Below are positions 1 to 44,098 of a stretch of 44,098 nucleotides of DNA, one piece after another. How positions within the stretch are numbered: the first letter of the stretch is position 1; each line of letters opens with the position of its first letter. The stretch is from Candidatus Endomicrobiellum siamense (GTDB lineage Bacteria; Elusimicrobiota; Endomicrobiia; Endomicrobiales; Endomicrobiaceae), in the NCBI GenBank assembly GCA_031268145.1, contig JAIRXS010000016.1:1-44098 (forward strand). Direction: 5' to 3'. The notes beneath the pieces were generated by a model, which ran no database searches, was not told where the DNA came from, and was given only the letters and a program-made list of their open reading frames with translations. The translations under genes and the position numbers were made by a program.

Positions 1-107
1 TTAACACTTCTTACAAAAACATTGGTATTGACCTTTCTGTTAAGTATTCTGATGGTAAGGCTGGCAACTCCATGGCTGGCTTGCTTAAGTTCTCTTTTAA
101 AATTTAG
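1..107 (+). CDS. C-terminal end of an outer-membrane beta-barrel-like protein (partial)
   Basis: The frame that starts at base 3 is open to the TAG at 105-107 and gives 34 residues, ending LLKFSFKI. Alternating polar and hydrophobic residues (IGIDLSVKYS, then GLLKFSFKI) look like the last two strands of an outer-membrane barrel, where an aromatic residue near the C-terminus is typical. The gene starts outside the window, so family and function cannot be named. Codons such as GCT, GGC, AAC and TCC are richer in G+C than in the neighbouring genes, which may reflect high expression or a different origin. A strong hairpin follows 36 bases after the stop. The barrel reading is inference from a short piece. 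Confidence 0.5.
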   Translation, partial: NTSYKNIGIDLSVKYSDGKAGNSMAGLLKFSFKI

Positions 108-3118: not shown

Positions 3119-4120
3119 CTATTTTAAAAGCATTACAGCGCTTATTAGATAAATATCTTCAAAACTAGAACCTCTACTTAAATCGCTTACAGGAAGAGCC
3201 AACCCTTGAAGGATAGGGCCTACAGCCTGAAATCCGCCAAGTCTCTCTGCAACTTTATAGGCAATATTGCCAGCATTTAAATCTGGGAAAATAAAAATGT
3301 TTGCATTTCCTGCAACTAAAGAATCTGGTGCTTTTCTTTTAGCTATGTTTGGCAAGATAGAAGCGTCAAATTGTAGCTCTCCATCAATATTTACAGATTT
3401 ATTTCCTTTAAAATATTTTTTTGTAAGTTCTGTAGCTTCTATTACTTTTGAAAGCATTTTGTTTTTTGCGCTTCCTTTAGTCGAAAAAGAAAGCATTGCA
3501 ACATTTGCAGTTTTTTCTGGAAAAATTTTTTTGTAACTTGCTACACTAGACACTGCTATATTTTGTAATCCCAAAGCCTGAGGTTCAGGGTTTACAGCAC
3601 AGTCTGCAAACATCAGAGGCCCTTTTATTATCGGATGATTTTCAGGAGGAATCATAAGAAAGTAAGAAGACATCATCTTTAGTCCTTCTTGCATACCTAC
3701 AACATAAATAGCCGCTCTTAAAACGTCTGCGCTATCGTATACAGCTCCGCCTACACAAGCATTACATTTACCGCTTTTAAGATACATCATGGAAAAAAAT
3801 AGAGGATTTTTTAACAAATCTGAAGCTTCCTGTTCAGACATTCCTTTTTTCATTCTTGCATCAACAAAAGATTTGACTTTAGTATTGTCTAACAAAGATC
3901 TATCTATAGCAATAATTTCTATTCCTTTTAAATCTATACCTTCTGCTTGTGCTAAGCTCTTAACTTCTTCTAAATTATTTGTTGGCAAAACAACTGAAGC
4001 TACAGAATTTTTAGTAAGCATAGAAGCAGCTTTTAAAATCCTTATATCAAAACTTTCAGGCAAAATTATTTTACCTTGCGCTTTTTTTGCCATTTGTAAA
4101 ATTTGTTTTCTCATATCCAT
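3119..4120 (-). CDS. pta: phosphate acetyltransferase
   Basis: A 333-residue single-domain phosphotransacetylase that interconverts acetyl-CoA plus phosphate with acetyl phosphate plus CoA. Typical segments are ILPESFDIRILKAA at the N-terminus, ACVGGAVYDSADVLRAAIY, MFADCAVNPEP, MLSFSTKGSAK, DASILPNIAKRKAPDSLVAG, FIFPDLNAGNIAYKVAERLGG and the end GPILQGLALPVSDLSRGSS. The length fits the short Pta class, without the N-terminal DRTGG regulatory part of the enterobacterial enzyme. AGGAG lies nine bases before the ATG. It is 21 bases downstream of an acyl-CoA synthetase gene and is probably co-transcribed with it. No acetate kinase gene is in the window. Confidence 0.93.
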   Translation of the reverse strand: MDMRKQILQMAKKAQGKIILPESFDIRILKAASMLTKNSVASVVLPTNNLEEVKSLAQAEGIDLKGIEIIAIDRSLLDNTKVKSFVDARMKKGMSEQEASDLLKNPLFFSMMYLKSGKCNACVGGAVYDSADVLRAAIYVVGMQEGLKMMSSYFLMIPPENHPIIKGPLMFADCAVNPEPQALGLQNIAVSSVASYKKIFPEKTANVAMLSFSTKGSAKNKMLSKVIEATELTKKYFKGNKSVNIDGELQFDASILPNIAKRKAPDSLVAGNANIFIFPDLNAGNIAYKVAERLGGFQAVGPILQGLALPVSDLSRGSSFEDIYLISAVMLLK

Positions 4121-4141: not shown

Positions 4142-5812
4142 CTAACTCTTCTGCTTAACTGAATCGCAATCTCTTATATGTTTACGCTTTATTTTGCCGC
4201 TTATGGTTTTTGGAAGTTCTTTGACAAACTCTATAATTCTTGGATATTTATATGGAGCAGTAATACTTTTTACATGATTTTGAAGATCTAAAACAAGTTC
4301 TGGACTTGGATTATATTCTTTAGCAAGTACAACAGTGGCTTTAACAACAGATCCCCTAATATCATCAGGAACACCAGTAATTGCACATTCCAAAACACTT
4401 GGATGTTCTAGTAATGCGCTTTCAACTTCAAAAGGTCCAATCCTGTATCCTGAACTTTTTATAACATCATCTGAGCGTCCAATAAACCAAATATACCCAT
4501 CTTCGTCTTTATAGACCATATCGCCAGTGTCATATATTCCACCTTTTAAAACTTTTTCCGTCATAACATCATCTTTATTATAATATCCGCAAAATAAACC
4601 TACAGGTTTAGAATCTTGTATTCTTATAACAAGACGTCCTTCTTCACCCGCTCGACAAGAATTATTCTGACTATCTACAATATCTACATTCCATCCTGCA
4701 GAAGGTTTGCCTATAGATCCAGGTTTTACTTTCATCCAAGGGAACGTTGCAACAAAAGCAACACTTTCTGTTTGTCCAAAACCTTCTTTTATCTCTAATC
4801 CCGTCATCTTTTTAAACTTTATAAAAACTTCAGGATTTAGAGGTTCTCCAGCGGTTTCAGCATACTTTAAATTAGAAAAAGCATATTTAGAAAAATCTTC
4901 TTTTATCATATATCTATAAACCGTAGGAGGAGCGCAAAAAGAAGTTACTTTATAATGAGCAACTCTAGATAATAATTCATGATAATCAAATCTTTCATAA
5001 TCATAAACAAAAATACAAGCCCCACACAACCACTGTCCATAAATCTTACCCCATGAAGCTTTCGCCCAGCCAGTGTCTGCCACTGTAAGATGCAAACTGT
5101 TTTCATTTAAATTCTGCCAAAAACGCGCAGTAATAATATGTCCCAAAGGGTAAGAAAAATTATGATAGACCATCTTAGGCATACCAGTCGTACCTGATGT
5201 AAAATATAATAAAAACTTATCTTTTGAAGTCGTTGCTTCAGCTCCAACAGGTCTTGTAAAAATATCAGAAAATTTTTCAATCTCTTTTGAATATTCTATC
5301 CAACCGTCAACTTTGCCACTTACGGATACCACATGCTTTAACTCAGGGAAATCTTTTTTTGCTTCATTTATTATATCTATAATTCTAAGATCTGAAGCCG
5401 CTACAATAATTTTTACATTTGCAGCTTTTACTCTATATTTTATATCTTTTGCTGTTAATAAATGCGTAACAGGAATCACCAAAGCGCCTATTTTATGCAA
5501 GGCAATTGAGCAATGCCAGTATTCATATCGTCTTTTTAACATTAGTATAACTGCGTCGCCTTTCTTTATTCCTAAAGACTTAAAAAAGTTTGCAGCTTTA
5601 TTGCTTTCCTTTTTTATATCTTCAAAAGTAAAAGTTTTTTCTGCACCTTCAGAATTACACCAAACCATAGCTTTTTTGTTAGGTTCAGATTTGGCTATTT
5701 CATCGACGACATCAAAACCAAAATTAAAATTATTTGGAACATGAATCTTATAGTTTTGTATAAAATCTTCATAAGACTCATAATTAATTCTTACAAACTT
5801 TGCAGCTATCAT
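4142..5812 (-). CDS. AMP-forming acyl-CoA/acetyl-CoA synthetase (medium-chain ACS type)
   Basis: A 556-residue ANL-superfamily enzyme that makes acyl-CoA from a carboxylate, ATP and CoA through an acyl-adenylate. The P-loop motif [12 protein letters not shown] is at about 203-214, followed by GFGQTE, YDTGD and [21 protein letters not shown], then the catalytic lysine region TISGKIKRK near the C-terminus. The overall form ([25 protein letters not shown]) matches the ACSM-like enzymes of Bacteroidetes and clostridia, which act on acetate, propionate or medium-chain acids. The ATG is preceded by GAGAGG. It lies directly upstream of pta, so the pair may balance acetyl-CoA with acetate and acetyl phosphate. 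The exact acid cannot be read from sequence alone. Confidence 0.88.
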
Positions 5813-5894
5813 TTTTCCTCTCTTTTTTATGCATCTAATTTTTATAATCTCAAGTTATTTTTAGATTACAGATAACGTTTTTGCAGAGGCCCTC

Positions 5895-6665
5895 CTATGA
5901 CAAATATGCATTAAATATAACTTTACCATTTTGATTTATAGCTTTTATAGAATTAAAAGAAACTTGATACTTATTTACATAACTTTCAAGATCACTCTGT
6001 AAAGCCTCTTGAATTATAGGCTCTACTACAGAATTTACAGTGCCTAAAACCAGAAAATAAAGTTCATTACCTTTTATACCTATATATTGCATCTGCATTG
6101 CTCCTATTAAAGCTCCGTAAAGAAGGTTTGTTCTAATCATCATATTAATTTGCGAAGCTATAAGTCTTCCAACAAATTCATCTTTTGTTATATCATGTTT
6201 ATCGTTTACCATTCTTGCTGCAAAAGAACTGCCACCAGCAAGTTCAATAAGATTTCTTGACTCATAATCTGAGCGAGATATACGCATATAAAAATAACTT
6301 TTTATATCATCAATATTTTGAACAATCCTAAAAGCCAAAATTTTATTTTTATCAAAAGCTGTCCCAACCATATACTGTATATTAGAATCGCTACTTAAAA
6401 CGACTCTAACTATCGCAAGATTTGTAGTTTGTATTGTTTTTATTGTTTGAAAAACAATTTTATTGTCATTAGAAATGAATTTGTCTATTACTATGTCTAA
6501 ATATAAAGTTTTTCCAATAACAACAACATTTGAGTCTAAACCACATTCCTTTTTTATAAGAGCTTGTAAATCTTGTGAAATTTCTTCTTTTTTATAAGTA
6601 ACTCCACATGAAGCGCATAAAAAAACTGCTATACACAAACTTAATATAACTTTAATTTTACTCAT
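5895..6665 (-). CDS. predicted lipoprotein, function unknown
   Basis: 256 residues. The N-terminus is a lipoprotein signal (VILSLCIAVFLCASCG) with lipobox LCAS-C at about C20. The rest has mixed alpha/beta character: a hydrophobic stretch near LLYGALIGAMQMQYIGIKG and a C-terminal part with SYVNKYQVSFNSIKAINQNGKVIFNAYLS. I do not recognise a family. It starts 37 bases after the FtsH-like protease gene on the same strand and is probably in the same transcript, so a role with that membrane protease is possible but unproven. Confidence 0.7.
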   Translation of the reverse strand: MSKIKVILSLCIAVFLCASCGVTYKKEEISQDLQALIKKECGLDSNVVVIGKTLYLDIVIDKFISNDNKIVFQTIKTIQTTNLAIVRVVLSSDSNIQYMVGTAFDKNKILAFRIVQNIDDIKSYFYMRISRSDYESRNLIELAGGSSFAARMVNDKHDITKDEFVGRLIASQINMMIRTNLLYGALIGAMQMQYIGIKGNELYFLVLGTVNSVVEPIIQEALQSDLESYVNKYQVSFNSIKAINQNGKVIFNAYLS

Positions 6666-6702
6666 AATTGCAATTTTCCCTTTGCAATAAGAATTCTATT
6701 TT

Positions 6703-8343
6703 TTAATTTAAAAAATCAGAAATTATAGATTTTTCAGTTCTAGGTTTTTTCTTACCTACAGTTTCCATAACCTCTTCTAACTCATCAAAGTCAAGTTCCT
6801 TATCTTTTATAAGCCTATTTGCTAGCGCGTCTACTGCATCCCAATTTGATTTTAAAAACTCTTCTACTTTAAAATAACAAGAATTTATTATAGCTATTGT
6901 TTCATTATTTAGTTTTTCTTTTAAGCTTTGAGACATTTGTTCTTTAGGTATAATAGAAAAATTTCCTACCATACCATTGCTACCCATACCAACTTTCCAC
7001 ACCATAGCATTGGCTATGGCCATAGCTCTAGAGAAGTCTGCAGAAACTCCTGTAGTAGTATTATTATATTTTAATTTCTCTGCGGTATAACCAGCAAGAG
7101 ACACCATAATATCTGCAAGAAGTTCATCTTTGTTTTCGTTATGTAACTCTTCCTTAGGAAGTGGAGCAACAAGACCTAATGAACCTTGATGTGATTTTAC
7201 AGTAACTTTAAAGACATCATCAGTTGGATGCATAAGATATATTGCCACAGCATGACCAGCTTCATGATAAGATGTTATTTCAAGTTCTTTAGGCGTCATA
7301 TCTAAATGCGTTTCTATACCTAAATCTATCCTATCCATAGCTTCTGAGATATCTTTCATATCTATTTCTTCTTTATTTTCTCTTGTAGCAATTAAAGCAG
7401 ATTCTTTAACAATATTTTCAATATCAGCTGGAGATTTATATACCGCTTTCCTAGCAAGTCTGTCAATTTTTACTTCAGAAGATATTTTTACTTTTTTCAA
7501 ATAATACTCAAATAGTTTTTCTCTTTCTTTTAAGTTTGGAAGAGTAATAGAGATTTTCCTATCAAATCTGCCTGGTCTAATCAATGCTCTATCTAACACT
7601 GACTCATCAGCATTTGTTGCAGCTATAACAATAACATTACTCTTTTTATTCTCTAAACCGTCCATTTCAACAAGTAGTTGATTCTGAGTACTATTTGTTT
7701 CTTCTCCACCACCCATATAAGAGAATGTTCTTCCTCTACCTATAACTTCAATTTCATCTATAAAAACTATACAAGCTCCACTAGTATAAGCATATTCTCT
7801 AGCTTTTTTAAAAAGACTTCTTACTCTACTTGCGCCAACTCCAACAAATATTTCGATAAACTCACTGCCAGCTATAGAAATAAAAGGAATTTTACATTCT
7901 GTCGCTATAGCTTTTGCAATTAAAGTTTTACCGCACCCAGGTGGTCCCATTAAAAGAATACCTTTAATTATTTTCCCACCTATTTTTTGAACTTGTTTTC
8001 TATCTTTAATAAGTTTTACAACTTCTAAAGCTTCTTTTTTTGCACCTTCAAGACCTATAACATCTTTAAAAGAAATTTCAATGTCTTTAGCTTGAATGTT
8101 TTTCTTTTTTAAATTGCCAAAGCCACCTTTTCTAAACATTATCACATACATGAACACAAAAACAGCTGCATTTGCAACCGCAAGCAAAAGGTGCATAGGC
8201 ATGGTTGCAAGGGTCATTACTCTATAGAAAGATTCAACTTTGCTTAATCCATAAATAGACAAACCTATAAGACCCACAACTATAGCGCCAATAATAAACC
8301 ATATTTTGTTATTTATAAAATATAACCTGAGCTTTCGTAGCAT
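6703..8343 (-). CDS. FtsH-like membrane AAA+ zinc metalloprotease lacking the periplasmic domain
   Basis: A 546-residue paralogue of FtsH. Two membrane spans (about 14-33 and 48-70) are joined by a loop of only about 15 residues, whereas standard FtsH has a folded domain of about 70 residues there. The AAA module has Walker A GPPGCGKT (133-140), the pore motif FVG (166-168), Walker B IVFIDE (192-197) and the arginine-finger region DRALIRPGRFDR. The protease zinc motif HEAGH (360-364) is intact and a downstream acidic ligand is likely in SADFSRA. It should therefore be an active ATP-driven protease with altered substrate entry. Family length is usually 600-650. A normal FtsH may exist elsewhere in the genome. 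A lipoprotein gene follows it. Confidence 0.88.
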   Translation of the reverse strand: MLRKLRLYFINNKIWFIIGAIVVGLIGLSIYGLSKVESFYRVMTLATMPMHLLLAVANAAVFVFMYVIMFRKGGFGNLKKKNIQAKDIEISFKDVIGLEGAKKEALEVVKLIKDRKQVQKIGGKIIKGILLMGPPGCGKTLIAKAIATECKIPFISIAGSEFIEIFVGVGASRVRSLFKKAREYAYTSGACIVFIDEIEVIGRGRTFSYMGGGEETNSTQNQLLVEMDGLENKKSNVIVIAATNADESVLDRALIRPGRFDRKISITLPNLKEREKLFEYYLKKVKISSEVKIDRLARKAVYKSPADIENIVKESALIATRENKEEIDMKDISEAMDRIDLGIETHLDMTPKELEITSYHEAGHAVAIYLMHPTDDVFKVTVKSHQGSLGLVAPLPKEELHNENKDELLADIMVSLAGYTAEKLKYNNTTTGVSADFSRAMAIANAMVWKVGMGSNGMVGNFSIIPKEQMSQSLKEKLNNETIAIINSCYFKVEEFLKSNWDAVDALANRLIKDKELDFDELEEVMETVGKKKPRTEKSIISDFLN

Positions 8344-27218: not shown

Positions 27219-27788
27219 TTACTTTTCCTTTAATATTTTTACAATTTCGTCTGTAACATTTTTATATTTACCAAACAAAATGCTTTTTTTATCTAAAATG
27301 GTATCTACATAATGTTCTTTTGCAAAAATTTTTAGTAAAGCTTCTATATCTTTTAAAATTTCTGCAGTATAACGCTCTTCAAGCAAAGCAATATCTTTTT
27401 TTGAACTGTCAGACAAATCAGAAATTTTTATGCGTTGTTCTTTTAAACTTACCAAAAGATTTTCTAATTCCTTTGAATGTTTAGAGGCAAGCATTTCATT
27501 GTTTTCTAACTTTGCTTTTGATATTTTTAAATTTAAAGTTTCTATTTTAGATTTTAAATCGTTAAAGTCTTTTATTAAATCTTCTATAATTGTTTTTCTT
27601 TTATATACAACTTCTTTAATTTCATTTTTATATTTTATAGTTTTTGGATGAGCATTAAATATTTCTTCCATATCAACACAAAAAACATTGTTGAAGTTTT
27701 CAACGTTTAAAGGATCATCCAAGCAAAATACCTTTAAAGATATAAAAAACAAACAAAAAATTAATAAAATAAACTTTTTAGAAAGCAT
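27219..27788 (-). CDS. OmpH/Skp family periplasmic chaperone
   Basis: 189 residues from the ATG at 27788, where the signal sequence begins (LSKKFILLIFCLFFISLKVFCL); the longer frame to 27824 lies within bamA. After the signal comes FCVDMEEIFNAHPKTIKYKNEIKEV, then a long charged coiled coil (about 70-150), as in Skp, the chaperone that carries unfolded barrel proteins to BamA. It overlaps bamA by 11 bases. Its place between bamA and lpxD is the classic arrangement of many diderm bacteria. Confidence 0.85.
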   Translation of the reverse strand: MLSKKFILLIFCLFFISLKVFCLDDPLNVENFNNVFCVDMEEIFNAHPKTIKYKNEIKEVVYKRKTIIEDLIKDFNDLKSKIETLNLKISKAKLENNEMLASKHSKELENLLVSLKEQRIKISDLSDSSKKDIALLEERYTAEILKDIEALLKIFAKEHYVDTILDKKSILFGKYKNVTDEIVKILKEK

Positions 27789-30033
27789 TTCCCATCGTAA
27801 AATAAAACTCTTGTAGAGGTTCACCTTCTTTATGATTTAAGCCATAGCCCCAATCAAGTCTTATTGGAAAGACTGGCGTTGCTATTCTTATACCAAAACC
27901 AACTCCAGAACGTAAATTCCTCTCACCTGTTCCAAGATCTAATTTTATAGTATTAAAATCCGCCCATGAACCACCTACATCATAAAAGAAAGAACCTACA
28001 AGTATTGACCTGCCTTTTTCTGCAACTATAGGAAACTTATACTCTACATTAAAAACCCCCTTTACTTTCCCGCCATTGACAGGCCCTATTTGTACTCTAG
28101 GTTTATAACCTCTAACATCACTCGGTCCACCTGTATAAAATCTTTCATAAATAGGGACTAGGGTTTGATTTCCATAAGCTGTAATTGCACCAAATTCAAC
28201 ATTGGCAGTTAACACAAACTTCCAAAATGTTGGGAAAAACCAAGTAGATCTTGCAATACCTCTTACAAAATTTATATCTCCTCCAATCTGATCATTTGCT
28301 ATTTGGAAATTAAGAACTTGCCTACTACCCTTTGAAGGATCAAAAACATAATCCCTAGAATCATAAACAATCTGCGTAAATATGCTGGATGTTTTTCCTT
28401 TTGAAAGGTCGGCTGCTTGTTCTATTTGTTTTTTTACAGAATCTTTTATATCTTTAAGTTTTATATCTTCAAAAGTATACCCAAACATCAATGATACGTA
28501 GTCGCTTAATCTTGGCCCTATTTTAGTAGAAAAACCTATTCTCCCTTCTTCATAAGCCTCTGTGTAAGTTGCATAATCTTTTTTTCTATTCATATCAAAA
28601 AGACTTAAAGTTAAACTTATATTTTTATCTAAAATTCTCGGTTCAGTCCAATCTATCTCATAATTTTGCCTGCGAGATCCAAACTCACACAACAAGTTTA
28701 ATCTTTGAGCAAGTCCAAATAAATTCATATGCTGTAATTGTAAAGAGCCTATTAGTTGATCAACTGAAGAATATCCAATACCTGCAGTAATAATACCTGG
28801 TTTCCCTTCTGTAATAGCAAGAGACAAGTCTAAAACATCCTGTGCACCCGTTGGCATAGGTTGAGTTTCCACACTTTCAATAAAACCTAAATTGTAAATT
28901 TTCTCTACACTCCTACGTACTTTTTGAAAAGAAAATACATCTCCAGGAGATAAAAGTATTTCTCTTCTTATTACCTTATCCTTTGTGGAAACAAGGCCAT
29001 CAATGTAAATATTTCCTATATATACAATTGTATTTTCTTGAATTGAAAAATTTACATCTACAATATTTGAAGACTCATTTGCCTTGTTAAATTCTGGTTC
29101 AATCTTTGCGTTTAAATAGCCTCTATCAGAATATAAAGAATATATCTCCCTGACTATTTCAATAATTTTATCTTGATTATAAATTTGTTTTCTTTTTAAT
29201 TTAATTACTTTTTGAATAATTTTATCATCAATAGCAAAACGTCCACTATAACTTACATTACCAATTTCATATTTATTGCCTTCATCTATATTAATTTTTA
29301 AAAACATTGCTGTTCTGGTGTCATTATAGGTTATAGAAGAAGACAACAATTGGTAATCCATAAAGCCATTATCTTTATAGAAAGTTTGTATTCCCATCAT
29401 GTCTGCCTGGAAAACCCCATCCTTAAATATTTTCTTAGGTTTTGTTTTCATTAGTGTCAGGATCTTTTTATTCTTAAATGAAAAAACCCCTTCAACATCA
29501 ACACCGCCTATAGTAATCTTGTTGTTTTCTGTTATAACAAAAGTTATAGTAATTTTATTTGTGTCCGCGTCTATAGTTGGATATGCTTCTATTTGGCAAT
29601 CCGCATAACCCTTGTCTCTATATAAATCTAATATTTTATTTTTTGTTTCTTCTAATTTTAGAAGATCATAATACTCTTTTTCTTTTAACACGCTTGTACT
29701 TTTTAATTTACTTATTGAAAATGACGAATTACCCTTAAAAACAACGCGATGTATATATGGCTTTTCTGTAACTGTAAAGGTGAGAATTCCTTTTTGCTCT
29801 TCAAAAGAGACTTCAACATTTTCAAAATAGTCAAGCGCAGATATAGAGCGCACAGTTTCTCTGGCAACATCTGCAGAATAGACTTCACCTTTTTTAATGT
29901 TAATAGCAGACAAAACAGTTTTCAATTTAACATTGTGAAGTCCATCAATTTCAATAAAAGATATTATATCTGTAGCATAAACAAAAGAAGTAAATAAAAG
30001 TATAAAAGATATAAAAATAACACGAACTTTCAT
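27778..30033 (-). CDS. bamA: outer membrane protein assembly factor BamA
   Basis: 751 residues. After a signal peptide (VRVIFISFILLFTSFVYA) come POTRA domains (DIISFIEIDGLHNVKLKTV; EKPYIHRVVFKGNSSFS; ITIGGVDVEGVFSFKNKKI; YEIGNVSYSGRFAIDDKII; VYIGNIYIDGLVSTKDKV), then the C-terminal barrel. The barrel carries the lid signature VRGY (in GGPSDVRGYKPR) and ends in FYFTMGNAF with the expected C-terminal phenylalanine. The protein inserts beta-barrel proteins in the outer membrane. A good promoter and GGGAG ribosome site lie upstream. The gene opens the large envelope operon running to lpxB. Confidence 0.95.
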   Translation of the reverse strand: MKVRVIFISFILLFTSFVYATDIISFIEIDGLHNVKLKTVLSAINIKKGEVYSADVARETVRSISALDYFENVEVSFEEQKGILTFTVTEKPYIHRVVFKGNSSFSISKLKSTSVLKEKEYYDLLKLEETKNKILDLYRDKGYADCQIEAYPTIDADTNKITITFVITENNKITIGGVDVEGVFSFKNKKILTLMKTKPKKIFKDGVFQADMMGIQTFYKDNGFMDYQLLSSSITYNDTRTAMFLKINIDEGNKYEIGNVSYSGRFAIDDKIIQKVIKLKRKQIYNQDKIIEIVREIYSLYSDRGYLNAKIEPEFNKANESSNIVDVNFSIQENTIVYIGNIYIDGLVSTKDKVIRREILLSPGDVFSFQKVRRSVEKIYNLGFIESVETQPMPTGAQDVLDLSLAITEGKPGIITAGIGYSSVDQLIGSLQLQHMNLFGLAQRLNLLCEFGSRRQNYEIDWTEPRILDKNISLTLSLFDMNRKKDYATYTEAYEEGRIGFSTKIGPRLSDYVSLMFGYTFEDIKLKDIKDSVKKQIEQAADLSKGKTSSIFTQIVYDSRDYVFDPSKGSRQVLNFQIANDQIGGDINFVRGIARSTWFFPTFWKFVLTANVEFGAITAYGNQTLVPIYERFYTGGPSDVRGYKPRVQIGPVNGGKVKGVFNVEYKFPIVAEKGRSILVGSFFYDVGGSWADFNTIKLDLGTGERNLRSGVGFGIRIATPVFPIRLDWGYGLNHKEGEPLQEFYFTMGNAF

Positions 30034-43803: not shown

Positions 43804-43955
43804 GTTTGTAAATTTGAAAAGAAACGTAGAGTTGTTTATTTATTTTTAAAAAAAATGATATAAACAAAAAAAGTAGTGCAGGAAATATCCCATAGGAAAA
43901 GTATACAAGTTGATATTTGCAATATTAGACTTTAACTTCATATAGGAGGTAACTA

Positions 43956-44098
43956 ATGTCATATCCTTTTAATCTTTTCAAAGCTTTTAAGGTACACCTT
44001 TTTAGTCTTGTCTTGTCTTGTCTTGTCTTGTCTTGTCTTGTCTTGTCTTGTCTTGTCTTGTCTTGTCTTGTCTTGTCTTAACTCCTAATCCCCTTCTT
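43956..44098 (+). CDS. 5' end of a probable phase-variable surface protein gene (signal peptide with pentanucleotide repeat)
   Basis: A strong ribosome site (TAGGAGGT) lies six bases before ATG 43956. The reading frame gives MSYPFNLFKAFKVHLFS, then four copies of LVLSC and LVLS, ending at TAA 44079-44081. The basic start followed by a hydrophobic repeat is a signal-peptide plan. The repeated unit is five bases, so each gain or loss of a unit shifts the frame. With the 15 units present the frame closes right after the tract (OFF). Losing one or gaining two units would join it to the frame ACT CCT AAT CCC, which is open to the window end. The body of the protein lies outside the window, so its identity is unknown. 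Confidence 0.7.
44005..44079 (+). repeat. pentanucleotide microsatellite, GTCTT x15
   Basis: Fifteen perfect copies of GTCTT (75 bases) with no interruption, starting 49 bases after the ATG at 43956. Perfect repeats of this length are highly prone to slippage. The unit is not a multiple of three, so the tract works as a translational switch in the gene that holds it. Confidence 0.95.

Follow-up and report, generated by a model that had tools for sequence, protein, structure and literature searches.

The tract at the 3' end of the window (the whole 44,098-nt stretch of DNA that was analysed) is very probably the 5' end of one classical autotransporter gene in a multigene family switched by slipped-strand mispairing of a pentanucleotide. 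The window is contig C34 of a draft genome (1.26 Mb, 47 contigs), and stretch and contig end together at 44098. G000 denotes the genome under study, C numbers without a genome label are its contigs, and labels of the form G0xx are relatives. The features of the window were:

1..107, + strand: 3' end of another family member, comprising the last beta-barrel strands, NTSYKNIGIDLSVKYSDGKAGNSMAGLLKFSFKI, then TAG
27778..30033, - strand: BamA, outer-membrane assembly factor (TIGR03303, E 7.5e-153, 510.6 bits vs a cut-off of 297)
43880..43949, + strand: upstream segment including AGGAGG, from alignment of upstream regions
43944-43949, + strand: Shine-Dalgarno AGGAGG, read from the sequence
43956-43958, + strand: start codon ATG, read from the sequence
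43956..44004, + strand: ATG and leader MSYPFNLFKAFKVHLF, signal-peptide n-region and start of the h-region
44005..44079, + strand: (GTCTT)15, putative phase-variation tract, coding for (LVLSC)n as the hydrophobic core
44079..44081, + strand: TAA stop reached at 15 units, OFF, product of 41 aa
44081..44098, + strand: start of the ON frame, T P N P L L..., gene cut by the contig end

The leader of the window copy was translated from the ATG as MSYPFNLFKAFKVHLFS, and all 15 GTCTT units were perfect (100% matches in the repeat search). The earlier note had described a ribosome-binding site, ATG, leader, 15 units and TAA, and had read 15 units as the OFF state; both held when coordinates and units were re-read from the sequence, with TAA at 44079-44081 and a 41-aa product. 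Its open frame two bases on exists and is the right ON frame as judged from the C16 paralogue, but, cut off by the contig end at 44098, 19 bases past the tract, it runs for just six codons (TPNPLL). In the C16 and C22 copies the homologous residues read TPNSL(L/I)A, and the 19-mer past the tract was found solely at the ends of C32 and C34. The period-5 stretch measured 75 nt, versus 13 nt for the longest elsewhere in the window and at most 18 nt in order-1 Markov simulations of the window. The upstream segment was common to the paralogues on C11, C22 and C27 and weaker in C3 and C32, while C16 shared the ribosome-binding site only.

The leader was present at eight places in the genome and the tract at seven of them; the other ATG-proximal GTCTT tracts amounted to six further copies of leader plus tract, with one more leader (the start of C28) cut at a contig end. 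A reversed control pattern gave zero matches in the same genome search. Leaders were 94-100% identical over an 80-nt query from ribosome-binding site to tract, followed the form MSNCFNLFKAFKVHLF-S(LVLSC)n with minor differences, and carried SNPs that differed between copies. Four tracts were complete (19 units in C3; 15 each in C16, C32 and the window), and all four were OFF, an outcome with a chance of 19.8%. The remaining tracts ran to contig edges, with 16 units in C27 and 4 each in C11 and at the end of C22; C22 additionally begins within a tract, at 13 units. C-terminal barrel ends were found at ten places, six of them contig starts and one at window positions 1-107; the family numbers about ten autotransporter copies. 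Both ends of the window are therefore occupied by family copies, and these repeats are why the assembly is broken there. Some members have decayed: most of the gene is lost in C22, and fragments remain in C24 and in C27 (28.9-29.1 kb). Tracts of at least 4 GTCTT units were confined to the autotransporter family in a repeat scan of 1,251,029 of 1,259,240 bases (99.3%), pooled by contig. BamA inserts autotransporter barrels, and the copy in the window is a supporting gene outside the switch.

The sole complete paralogue lies inside C16, with unique flanks on both sides. Its product would be 805 aa at 14 units and 810 aa at 17, versus 40-45 aa at 13, 15 or 16 units, showing on this complete copy that in this genome a unit number of 2 mod 3 gives the full-length protein and the other two phases a peptide of 40-50 aa. 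The tract encodes LVLSC repeats in every frame, and the change falls after the tract only. Past the OFF tract of C16, 765 codons stayed open in a genome of 30.8% GC. Pfam gave no relevant match in these 765 residues, and a sequence-profile search of the PDB gave no significant match for the family protein. The AlphaFold2 model of the C16 protein (pLDDT 77.7) had beta-helix-like strands at about 50-400, a 41-residue helix at 435-475 and 12 long strands at 486-763. When this model was compared with the PDB by Foldseek, the top 18 fold matches were all autotransporters, including EspP (E 4.9e-11) and BrkA (TMt 0.83). Three homologues matched NF040482, a BafA family autotransporter (best E 7.9e-6, in a table that reports no cut-off). 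The protein is thus predicted to be a classical (type Va) autotransporter with a signal peptide, beta-helix passenger, linker helix and C-terminal 12-strand barrel, an assignment that rests on the predicted structure because Pfam does not recognise the family protein.

Among the other genomes compared, 18 of 35 from the genus and 0 of 24 from elsewhere in the phylum encoded homologues of the family protein (E <= 1e-4 for both); no match to this protein was found in named genomes. BamA was 81-85% identical to that of named Candidatus Endomicrobiellum species, which places the genome in that genus. Its members are described as endosymbionts living in flagellates of the termite gut and as having an envelope that looks intact (PMC11257099), in support of the earlier suggestion of a probably endosymbiotic Elusimicrobia genome. 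The sister species G030 carried five homologous leaders with CTTCT tracts at the same place, encoding SLLFS repeats; this unit is a rotation of the CTCTT of Neisseria opa. Two of the five were ON (C24 with 13 units; C2 with 22 units, read only 7 codons past the tract to the contig end) and three OFF (C21 with 15 units, C39 with 16 and C35 with 17), the OFF copies keeping long open frames and being interspersed with ON copies. G019 had one leader close to that of the window (MSKCFNLFKAFKQYLF...) with 4 units, ON, and another with 6 units, OFF, and a homologue in G022 had an ordinary, tract-free signal peptide. When the three species were pooled, unit numbers ranged from 4 to 22, and 3 of 11 complete tracts were ON and 8 of 11 OFF, near the one third ON expected under random phase. 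Nearly all homologues had an ...LLA|Q motif after the tract (LIAG|Q in C16), which would fit cleavage by signal peptidase I.

Several repeats in these relatives lay elsewhere. TGTCT x14 (G025 C24:1051-1120), AGAAG x16 (G025 C45:21682-21761) and TGGTCTC x10 (G019 C7, positions 3553-3622 of an extracted segment) were outside family leaders, and AGAAG x5 (G022 C21:116-140) was antisense to a barrel region; the GTCTT/CTTCT tracts of G025 and the AGAAG tract of G022 C21 were rejected as family switches since they are not in family leaders. A tract-free homologue on G022 C24 (positions 4627-7410 of an extracted segment, - strand) showed an unusual fusion, with an OmpA-type domain after the autotransporter-like barrel. 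This was the sole domain that Pfam recognised among the homologues, and no Pmp domains were found.

Contig ends in 22 groups shared exactly 119 bases and contigs of MAGs in the genus are named k119_, indicating assembly at k = 119; tracts of up to 19 units with their flanks therefore fit one k-mer and are resolvable. C34 and C32 ended in an identical 119 bases. C3, with 19 units, continues into C22, and the start of C22 points to another path with exactly 13 units leading there. The sequence of C27 breaks off at exactly 16 units, even though locus-specific bases are present in its final k-mer. Both patterns are suggestive of tract-length heterogeneity in the sampled population, but unbinned paralogues or a gap in coverage may also account for them. 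Contigs C10, C15 and C45 (2.6-2.8 kb) shared the same 119 bases at both ends among all three, and may be copies of a single short element, repeated or circular.

In this reading, the leader is conserved in every member, and its pentanucleotide tract lies within the hydrophobic core of what would be a Sec/SPase I signal peptide. Slipped-strand mispairing would add or remove units and shift the frame just upstream of the mature protein, and members switching independently would produce combinatorial ON/OFF diversity at the surface of a bacterium of an endosymbiont lineage. The tract is long and perfect and its unit number sets the frame of a real gene; tract length differs among loci and relatives, and ON and OFF phases both occur. 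From such sequences we infer slippage in living populations, export through an unusually long, repeat-encoded signal peptide and exposure of the protein at the surface.

An unlikely alternative is that recombination is primary and the tract secondary, with near-identical leaders and barrel ends allowing passengers to be shuffled among dispersed copies. DNA identity to the C16 copy was 96-99% in leaders and about 81-89% in barrel ends, the C16 passenger had no DNA match among the contigs tested, and besides C3 (19 units), at least one further path, with exactly 13 units, leads into C22. For three paralogues of G030, the N-terminal part of the passenger gave dN/dS of 0.95-1.9, which, like the between-species values of mostly 0.3-0.7, is a hint only, coming from pairwise, indel-rich alignments with often saturated distances. 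However, every tract is placed exactly where the frame decides translation, the tract is the feature common to the species while its unit and number have changed, and no leaderless donor cassettes were identified. Shuffling is compatible with pentamer switching, and the two are not exclusive. It is improbable that the copies are decaying pseudogenes, or the tract a neutral microsatellite expanded in a relaxed, AT-rich endosymbiont genome. Erosion is typical of endosymbiont genomes, the members on C22, C24 and C27 have decayed and every complete tract in this genome is OFF; but C16, though OFF, retains its 765-codon frame and complete predicted fold, the OFF copies of G030 keep their open frames amid ON copies, between-species dN/dS was mostly below one as given above, and pentamer tracts occupy homologous places in three species. 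The genome also has a MutS gene, which argues against decay and gives no support to mismatch-repair loss as a cause.

It is very doubtful that the tract serves to adjust the length of the signal peptide or the efficiency of export, with the frame restored by translational or transcriptional slippage. The hydrophobic core was indeed 27-28 residues in the ON phase vs 18-19 in homologues with a short tract or none; yet a stop follows within about 50 codons in two of the three phases, and such pentamers are not known to be slippery sites for ribosomes or polymerase. The earlier note had also suggested a lipoprotein with the repeated LSC as lipobox, and each LVLSC unit does match a loose PROSITE-type lipobox pattern. 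This idea found no support and is hardly credible: homologues have SLLFS units free of Cys or lack the tract, they share the non-Cys LLA|Q site-like motif after it in place of a conserved lipobox Cys at the cleavage site, and a barrel protein needs no lipid anchor. We give almost no credence to assembly artefact or contamination. This is a short-read MAG with most copies at contig ends, but the C16 copy is internal between unique flanks, SNPs distinguish the leaders, other MAGs carry homologous tracts, every complete tract is shorter than k = 119, and contamination was 0.17%. Slipped-strand switching of the pentamer in an autotransporter family remains the reading that we prefer.

In this 30.8% GC genome, the same scan (99.3% of the sequence) detected poly-G/C runs of 9-16, several of which break or restore long frames; the genes with frame-breaking runs are likely to be further phase-variable genes. 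The runs in genes were:

C28:3776, G15: radical-SAM protein, OFF
C6:11115, G13: radical-SAM protein, OFF
C6:16947, G16: GDSL-like hydrolase
C16:39892, G11: exported-looking protein with poly-G in its leader, OFF
C19:729, C9: exported-looking protein related to the C16 one, ON
C44:9192, C10: PAS/histidine-kinase-like protein, in frame
C27:14253, G12: coding gene with a poly-G run

Runs of at least 11 G were widespread but not universal among genomes of the genus, were seen in some outgroups too, and hence are not genus-specific. A CCAA array of at least 27 copies was present at C3:1-111, directly after ATG-AAT-AAT-TTT-G, and at C30:62628-62727, where it leads into a family-9 glycosyltransferase (PF01075). 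We infer a join of C3 to C30 from start codon to glycosyltransferase, an arrangement similar to that of the LPS genes switched by tetranucleotides in Haemophilus. Also observed was a dispersed element roughly 300 bp long, with a promoter-like region, GGGAG, ATG, an array of 6-17 heptamers (AGCATAC or CAACATA) and a terminator-like hairpin. It lies at the starts of C8, C20 and C42, at the ends of C12, C31 and C9, and internally at C30:25238-25281 and C27:28844-28930, the C27 element being fused to an autotransporter-leader fragment with two GTCTT units. Five copies occur in G030 C40.

In Neisseria, the opa genes form a multigene family of outer-membrane proteins in which CTCTT repeats lie in the leader and each copy switches independently (PMC3960869, PMC5354566). 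The Opa-like tract inside a signal peptide proposed in the earlier note was upheld by the re-read leader and tract and by the multicopy family, and the Endomicrobiellum genome shares both the pentamer tract and the multicopy family with opa. The claim of the same design stands for the pentamer in the signal peptide but not for the product, here a predicted autotransporter of about 800 aa with 12-strand barrel and beta-helix passenger, whereas Opa is a small barrel; no Opa-type barrel or sequence homology was found, with no Pfam family matched. Likewise, the unit differs from that of Neisseria in this genome, being GTCTT (LVLSC), but the SLLFS-encoding unit of G030 is the opa unit in rotation. 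The bacterium, too, differs, belonging to an endosymbiont genus of the Elusimicrobiota. As modelled, the family switches in the manner of opa without being an Opa family itself.

Chlamydia Pmp autotransporters, which are phase-variable through poly-G (PMC6740158), are similar in being paralogous autotransporters switched by slippage, in a bacterium that lives intracellularly and has a reduced genome. However, the slippage tract of Pmp genes is a homopolymer within the gene, in place of the pentamer of the signal peptide seen here, Pfam detected neither the repeat nor the middle domains of Pmp in the present family, and Chlamydia lives in animal host cells whereas this lineage consists of gut-protist symbionts. 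The type Va proteins EspP, BrkA, NalP and EstA share the predicted beta-helix passenger, linker helix and 12-strand barrel, but identity was 13-16%, the Pfam match is absent here, and a tract-bearing leader is foreign to those families. Neisseria PilC has poly-G in its signal peptide region (PMC5354566), which the poly-G leaders at C16 39892 and C19 729 parallel in layout.

No paper on phase variation or autotransporters in Elusimicrobia or Endomicrobium was found in the searched literature; a broader search returned other bacteria only, among the matches listed, and the main genome study of the genus mentions neither subject (PMC11257099). The Opa, PilC and Chlamydia Pmp parallels are each already known singly (PMC3960869, PMC5354566, PMC6740158). 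As far as the searched literature shows, what is new is how these elements are combined and where: pentamer-switched autotransporters whose unit changes between sister species, in a protist-endosymbiont lineage.

We tentatively suggest, as a possibility somewhat short of an even call, that inherited protist symbionts maintain an entire phasome, made up of the pentamer autotransporters, poly-G tracts in genes for radical-SAM and secreted proteins, and a tetranucleotide-controlled glycosyltransferase, which diversifies the surface in single host cells, and that the pentamer switch may have arisen or changed its unit repeatedly, converging on the Neisseria unit. Phase variation has been studied mainly in pathogens and commensals under vertebrate immunity. 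An opa-type unit in a remote phylum would be a striking convergence on a pentamer that codes for a hydrophobic signal-peptide core in every frame. Protist recognition or digestion, rival symbionts and phages are speculative selective reasons; if the phasome reading is true, it would mean ongoing recognition, competition or phage pressure within the protist. That intracellular symbionts of gut protists keep switchable autotransporter families and other repeat-switched genes while their genomes shrink points to strong, fluctuating selection acting on their surface within a unicellular host.
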